From positions 186,001 to 250,000 of the forward strand of contig JAHIQM010000015.1 in assembly GCA_018902545.1 (NCBI GenBank): a stretch of 64,000 bases of DNA, written 5' to 3'. The position numbers and the translations under genes were made by a program. The notes beneath the pieces are model-generated. The model did no database searches. It saw only the letters and a list, made by a program, of their open reading frames with translations, and was not told where the DNA came from. This stretch comes from Pseudomonadota bacterium. GTDB taxonomy: Bacteria; Desulfobacterota; Desulfovibrionia; Desulfovibrionales; Desulfomicrobiaceae. This document shows positions 10,947-11,474 of this stretch, one piece after another; within the stretch, counting starts at the first letter, position 1; each line of letters opens with the position of its first letter.

Positions 10947-10977
10947 CCCAGTTTACTTTTTTTGAAGGAGAAATGAA

Positions 10978-11115
10978 ATGAGCAAGAGAACATATCAGCC
11001 GAGCACCACCAAACGCAAAAGAAGCCACGGATTTCTGGTCCGCTCCCGGACCAAGAACGGCCAGGCTGTGCTGCGTCGCAGAAGAGCCAAGGGAAGAAAA
11101 AGATTAGCCGTCTAA
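10978..11115 (+). CDS. rpmH: Ribosomal protein bL34
   Basis: 45-residue basic protein ([19 protein letters not shown]..., ending GRKRLAV) matching bL34 end to end. AAGGAG lies about eight bases before the ATG. First gene of the conserved rpmH-rnpA-yidD-yidC-khpB-mnmE cluster. A second reading frame belonging to rnpA stays open through this whole gene. Confidence 0.97.
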
Positions 11116-11474
11116 CCTGCCCTCCCTCGTATCGACTGAAGAGACGGCCCCAGTTTTGCAACTGTTATGACCGGGGCCGTCGTTTTTTTTCAAAGAGTTT
11201 CACTCTCTTTGTGCTCGAGCGGGAAGATGCCGGGGAATCCTGGCGTCTTGGACTGACGGTGAGCAGAAAAATTGGCAAGTCCGTGCGGCGCAATCGGGTC
11301 AAGCGTTTGGTCCGGGAGTTTTTTCGGCTTCATCAGCGTGATTTCAAGCTGCGCTCGGACATTGTTGTGGTGCCCAAGCGGGGCGTTTGCGTGGATTCCA
11401 TGGACCTTGCGCAGGTGTCCTCGGAGCTTGGCCCGCTGATGACCAAAATCGTGTCCCGGGTTGGAGCGGCCTAG
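11103..11474 (+). CDS. rnpA: Ribonuclease P protein component, non-canonical start
   Basis: Protein subunit of RNase P, which matures tRNA 5' ends. From 11127 the frame encodes the conserved N-terminal part [20 protein letters not shown], then the family core and the RNA-binding signature [15 protein letters not shown]. The only ordinary start codon in frame is GTG 11211, but that would delete the first beta strand and the GRR region. The frame is open back to a stop at 10974-10976 with no ATG, GTG or TTG. ATT at 11103, eight bases after AAGGGA, is the best start I can propose (124 residues, normal family length); CTG 11136 is another. The ATT start would overlap rpmH by 13 bases. Confidence 0.8.

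Follow-up and report, generated by a model that had tools for sequence, protein, structure and literature searches.

The rpmH-rnpA locus in the stretch of DNA analysed here (64,000 nucleotides of the draft genome of a sulfate-reducing bacterium of the Desulfomicrobiaceae, hereafter the window) raises the question of how translation of the RNase P protein is started. The genes and the codon concerned are as follows.

10978..11115, plus strand: rpmH, ribosomal protein L34, 45 aa (PF00468 E=2.6e-21, TIGR01030, ORF list)
11103..11474, plus strand: rnpA, RNase P protein, 123 aa counted from the ATT (PF00825, matches to solved RnpA chains)
11103-11115, plus strand: overlap of rpmH and rnpA in different frames, corresponding to the final 13 nt of rpmH
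11211..11213, plus strand: GTG, first canonical in-frame start codon of rnpA, inside the fold (rejected as start)

The rnpA product was recognized in profile searches by PF00825 (E=8.4e-28, 97 bits, cut-off 22.3) and TIGR00188 (E=1.3e-22, 80.1 bits, cut-off 38.35). Its RNR motif was invariant in an alignment of nine sequences from the order Desulfovibrionales. In the window, the frame has a TGA at 10974-10976 and is then open from 10977 to 11474, beginning one base before rpmH and running through it, as a preliminary description of this DNA had stated. That rnpA has no canonical start upstream of the fold was borne out as well: between the stop at 10974-10976 and the GTG at 11211, the frame in the window contains no ATG, GTG or TTG. 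The GTG had also been called the only canonical codon in frame; it is the first, but ten more follow downstream (11259, 11283, 11307 and on).

The best start candidate put forward in the preliminary description was an ATT inside the end of rpmH.

11103..11105, plus strand: ATT, putative AUU initiation codon of rnpA (relatives, E. coli alignment, rpmH codon constraint)
11089..11094, plus strand: AAGGGA, Shine-Dalgarno (SD)-like, inside rpmH, 8 nt before the ATT (sequence)

This candidate gained strong support from relatives, from the codon constraint in rpmH and from the start position in E. coli, and ATT 11103 is very probably the start of rnpA. We have high confidence in the reading that rnpA would be translated from AUU 11103 within the last rpmH codons, with an SD-like AAGGG provided by Lys-Gly codons of L34. 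The spacing given earlier, eight bases between AAGGGA and the ATT, was confirmed in the sequence. The predicted duplex of the SD-like stretch with the 16S tail GAUCACCUCCUU was weak, at -4.6 kcal/mol versus -8.4 for rpmH and -9.8 for infC. The tail was taken from two genomes of the same genus; a pattern search for it in the window's own genome gave no match.

In E. coli K-12, rnpA starts with a GTG 16 nt after rpmH. A global alignment placed this GTG opposite ATT 11103, with zero gaps across the first 34 residues. Eleven solved RnpA chains matched the window protein, the best three aligning from residue 8 on and the remaining ones from residues 3 to 11 on. The residues ahead of GTG 11211 were conserved in the nine-sequence alignment of the order. 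A start at this GTG, which would remove the usual N-terminal 36 residues, has in its favor that the codon is the first canonical one in frame. However, it corresponds to residue 37 and would lose conserved sequence, because the solved chains and E. coli RnpA align earlier. Its place also shifts among the plus-strand loci of the genus: several have it at +108, L012 at +99 and L016 at +114, while L013 has an ATG at +114, and L008 and L009 have no such codon up to +150. We therefore regard initiation at 11211 as most improbable.

The same ATT was found in the same frame in 16 of the 16 genomes of the genus, the window's included, which makes a sequencing error very unlikely. The suggestion that a base missed near 11100-11130 might restore a normal start was thus abandoned.

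The start region was then compared across the order. A match to rnpA was present in 196 of 199 sampled genomes, and in 242 of the 247 drawn from a class-wide search, which overlapped the first sample and returned only the same order. We read 207 loci, one per genome, comprising the best matches and genera chosen to cover the rest, a broad but not random set. Two were excluded, one without rpmH and one a fragment, leaving 205 usable loci from 51 genera; being related and in part picked by genus, these represent neither independent events nor a random sample. The 13-nt overlap occurred exactly in 158 of the 205 loci, and in the other 47 the genes were arranged separately. Aligning the RnpA N-terminus and the codon upstream of it across Desulfovibrionales, as had been proposed, revealed ATT at the start column in 123 of the 158 overlap loci, from 32 genera. 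The other 35 had CCT (20), GCT (6), TCT (4), CTT (4) or TTT (1), and ATG, GTG, TTG, ATA and ATC were absent from this column in all 158. On the RnpA tree, ATT and not-ATT interchanged at least 11 times, a rough figure from a quick tree of 204 of the 205 rows with support values unused.

Because the ATT class is defined by its codon, an in-frame stop close upstream was used as a non-circular test. Such a stop lay within 30 nt upstream in 55 of the 158 overlap loci, so that the start in these must be near the column, and 53 of the 55 have ATT. In 28 of the 53, a single codon separates the stop from the ATT. The remaining two loci have TTG at +9 (L110) and CTG at +6 (L351).

Canonical codons were scarce around the ATT. 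From the upstream stop to codon 18, 69 of the 123 ATT loci have no ATG, GTG or TTG; the other 54 have at least one in frame, either upstream or in the first 18 codons, and ATT is therefore not forced in every genome. Within -30 to +24, a canonical in-frame start was present in 4 of the 123 ATT loci versus 46 of the 47 separate-gene loci, the lone exception being L079 with an ATG at -48. In 22 of the 47, the start lies exactly at the ATT column (17 ATG, 3 GTG, 2 TTG). As rnpA codon frequencies predict a near canonical start by chance in ~68% of such stretches, the 46 of 47 is weak evidence by itself; the low count of 4 in 123 is more telling, though this stretch is partly bound by rpmH.

The codons of rpmH suggest why ATT occupies the column.

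11101..11106, plus strand: rpmH codons AGA TTA (Arg-Leu near the L34 C-terminus), source of the ATT in the rnpA frame (codon counts)

The C-terminal Leu of L34 is invariant in both ATT and non-ATT overlap loci. In the ATT loci it is encoded by TTA (104 of 123) or TTG (19 of 123), while TTA makes up 1 of 172 other rpmH Leu codons in the same loci. The codon before it is AGA in 109, AAA in 7, CGA in 5 and CAA in 2 of the 123. In the 35 non-ATT overlap loci, the preceding codon is CGC (24), CGT (5), CGG (3), AGG (2) or AAG (1), and the Leu codon CTG (27), TTG (5), CTT (2) or CTA (1), with CGC CTG as the commonest pair (18 of 35). In terms of rpmH, the start column is made up of the third position of an Arg, Lys or Gln codon plus the first and second positions of the invariant Leu codon. 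It can thus read only NTT or NCT, so that ATG, GTG and TTG are impossible there as starts of rnpA. Of these codons, NCBI table 11 recognizes only ATT for initiation. The odd start codon is probably due to the overlap, which leaves canonical starts no room.

Codon use in rnpA of the ATT loci (Arg: AGA 7.9%, CGA 7.3%; Leu: TTA 6.1%, TTG 11.4%) predicts that an Arg codon ending in A would precede a Leu codon beginning with TT in ~3% of cases, compared with the observed 123 of 158 overlap loci; a chance origin of the ATT is thus very unlikely, bearing in mind that the loci are related and the sample not random. The L34 Gly codon within the SD-like stretch also differed between the classes, being GGG or GGA in 88 of the 123 ATT loci versus 2 of the 35 non-ATT overlap loci.

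This codon pattern also bears on two other ways of starting RnpA. One is initiation at a nearby non-canonical codon, namely CTA/CTG at +9 or CTG at +33. Some relatives do have TTG in place of the CTG at +33, and L351 combines the lack of ATT with its CTG at +6. However, the rare rpmH codons are tied to ATT alone, the codon varies among relatives both at +9 (CTA, CTG, TTA or TTG) and at +33 (CTG, TTG, CTC, CTT, ATC or ATA), and the window lacks an SD-like stretch ahead of +33. Initiation at these codons is thus highly improbable. The other is a -1 frameshift out of rpmH, yielding an L34-RnpA fusion that needs no start codon. The rnpA frame is indeed the -1 frame of rpmH and overlaps its end, but where a single codon separates stop and ATT (28 loci), slippage would be confined to the last few rpmH codons, and no slippery heptamer was seen by eye there in the listed loci. 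Since a fusion would also leave the rare ATT-making codons unexplained, we consider it extremely unlikely.

In L351, the stop lies one codon before the start column, which reads GCT, and there is no ATG, GTG or TTG up to +45. Its rnpA may start at CUG. A genus mate, L325, has ATT.

The preliminary description had also considered a start upstream of or within rpmH, as in Thermus. There, AUGGAUG precedes rpmH, and rpmH is fully nested in rnpA (reported by Feltens 2003, as described in PMC9841429); the latter calls this the only case described in bacteria, as of 2022. In the window, the frame open through rpmH would allow such nesting, but only a single base of it lies ahead of rpmH, and the first ATG, GTG or TTG comes at 11211, so that an upstream start does not fit. 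Within the genus, the rnpA frame is interrupted by a stop in 7 of 16 genomes (5 at -84, 2 at -12). In the order, the 28 ATT loci with a single codon between stop and ATT argue against it too, and of the 123 ATT loci only 56 have a frame that stays open beyond the beginning of rpmH. A long rnpA enclosing rpmH is therefore very unlikely for the window.

The non-ATT relatives differ in this respect, and a nested start resembling that of Thermus likely operates in them. Their frame is open past the rpmH start in 33 of the 35 overlap loci, and in 32 of the 35 this open frame holds a canonical codon no more than 30 nt ahead of rpmH, versus 23 of the 123 ATT loci (Fisher 2e-15, with related loci). 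The exceptions to the nested pattern are genus g3 (3 loci) and L351. In g3, a TTG is part of a TTGA overlap, and one of the three loci still has a canonical codon before rpmH. With g3 and L351 set aside, the 31 remaining loci (9 genera) have T at 0 of 325 stop-making sites, versus 139 of 1548 in the ATT loci. In 15 of the non-ATT loci, belonging to genera g17, g21 and g34, ATGCATG follows a GGAG at the rpmH start, and the rnpA frame continues through rpmH without a stop.

L089, L102, L115, L116, L118, L121, L127, L128, L146 and L299-L304: ATGCATG before rpmH

This geometry is that reported for the Thermus AUGGAUG, and the ATGCATG in these three genera is a probable independent Thermus-type nested start of rpmH and rnpA. 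In genus g7, seven loci instead carry an ATG located 22 nt ahead of rpmH. The window shares with Thermus the out-of-frame overlap of the same two genes, which suggests linked synthesis of L34 and RnpA. It differs in that its AUU lies at the end of rpmH and its RnpA is of ordinary length, whereas the Thermus AUGGAUG precedes rpmH. One locus, L306, combines ATGTATG ahead of rpmH with an ATT in the start column, and is a possible evolutionary intermediate.

AUU starts have been reported for few bacterial genes, among them E. coli infC and pcnB and S. aureus cvfC1. In E. coli, infC starts with AUU and is autoregulated by IF3, according to PMC9410913. The analogy to infC, drawn in the preliminary description, proved apt, as infC of the window's genome is also left with ATT alone. 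It reads TGA, GAT, ATT, and the next ATG, GTG or TTG follows 93 nt after the frame opening. With a TGA one codon before and the next ATG far inside, infC must start at ATT. Among the infC loci read (L294 and L354-L382, from this and other genera), an ATT that is the only nearby start and follows a stop at a distance of one codon was present in 15 of the 16 genus genomes; infC of L355, from the same genus, has ATA and canonical codons further upstream. In several other genera examined from the order, infC has ATA at that place while rnpA keeps ATT. At the rnpA column, ATA is impossible because the column overlies a Leu codon.

What rnpA has in common with E. coli infC is that a gene serving RNA or protein synthesis would begin with AUU. 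The two differ in that rnpA is not the IF3 gene, that its AUU would be forced by an overlapping gene, and that infC of this genome has the stronger SD match. The pcnB gene of E. coli likewise combines AUU with an RNA-modifying enzyme, though a different one. Its AUU start reportedly limits the amount of product (Binns and Masters, 2002), and we know of no overlap of pcnB with a ribosomal-protein gene. A rare start codon that passes IF3 control on to a non-infC gene is found in Streptomyces sigR, which starts with GTC and is repressed by IF3 according to PMC5472188. Codon, gene and phylum differ from the present case, and IF3 control is reported for sigR but only proposed for rnpA. Among titles, abstract openings and term counts of open-licence PMC papers, we found no report of an AUU start of rnpA or of Desulfovibrio rnpA starts. 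While AUU initiation is already known, what appears new is the gene, rnpA, and the structural reason for the codon.

From the reading frame, the conserved ATT and the bound rpmH codons, we infer the following mode of expression. AUU 11103 would initiate rnpA, aided by the SD-like sequence within rpmH, and ribosomes finishing rpmH would probably help this initiation. Published work describes IF3 as discriminating against AUU, and excess IF3 as inhibiting both non-canonical starts and SD-less re-initiation. A low, IF3-sensitive synthesis of RnpA relative to L34 would therefore be expected: weak, rpmH-coupled initiation may keep RnpA low, and the AUU may confer the sensitivity to IF3, by analogy with infC. 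RnpA would then be one more possible target of IF3 control. An AUU start appears to be kept for this RNA-processing enzyme in 32 of the 51 genera read, with a clear reason, in that the overlapping L34 Leu codon forbids every canonical start. Start-site callers restricted to ATG, GTG and TTG would be expected to mis-start RnpA. The natural variants, with AUU, double AUG, TTGA, separated genes or ATT plus ATGTATG, offer a direct way to test how start-site choice evolved.

A second element was found downstream of the ATT, inside rnpA.

11143..11190, plus strand: terminator-like hairpin inside rnpA (9-bp stem 11143-11151/11173-11181, then eight T at 11183-11190)

In the window, it has a GC-rich stem and a T-rich tail and spans codons 14-30. 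Such a hairpin was recovered in all 16 loci of the genus and in 37 of the 205 from the order, compared with 1 of 205 when a control stretch of rnpA was scanned and 14 of 1025 when codons were shuffled. The scan did not detect it in most genera, including all 25 loci of g22, and it is therefore not needed for an AUU start. A terminator scan with loops limited to 8 bases did not list it. Conserved residues (in the window protein, RRP and GRR) may partly account for the pairing, and the hairpin may be an attenuator. A wider reading, tentative and on balance unlikely, would join these elements. A ribosome starting at AUU would cover the hairpin, and transcription would continue into rnpA-yidD-yidC, while a failed start would lead to termination after rpmH; elsewhere in the order, the overlap would have been solved by the second, independent Thermus-type double start (AUGCAUG). 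If this were true, initiation capacity, through IF3 and the flow of L34 synthesis, would set both translation and transcription of the RNase P protein and the membrane insertase.

Outside the order, the scan covered 60 loci belonging to other families within the phylum; RnpA and L34 could be placed in 59 of them (L173 remained unplaced). The combination of the 13-nt overlap and ATT was absent from these loci, with L181, L183 and L202 aligned too poorly to judge. In four of these other-family loci (L157, L191, L201 and L210), rnpA has no nearby ATG, GTG or TTG. Near the expected rnpA start, L210 has ATT, located after the end of rpmH, and L191 has ATA.
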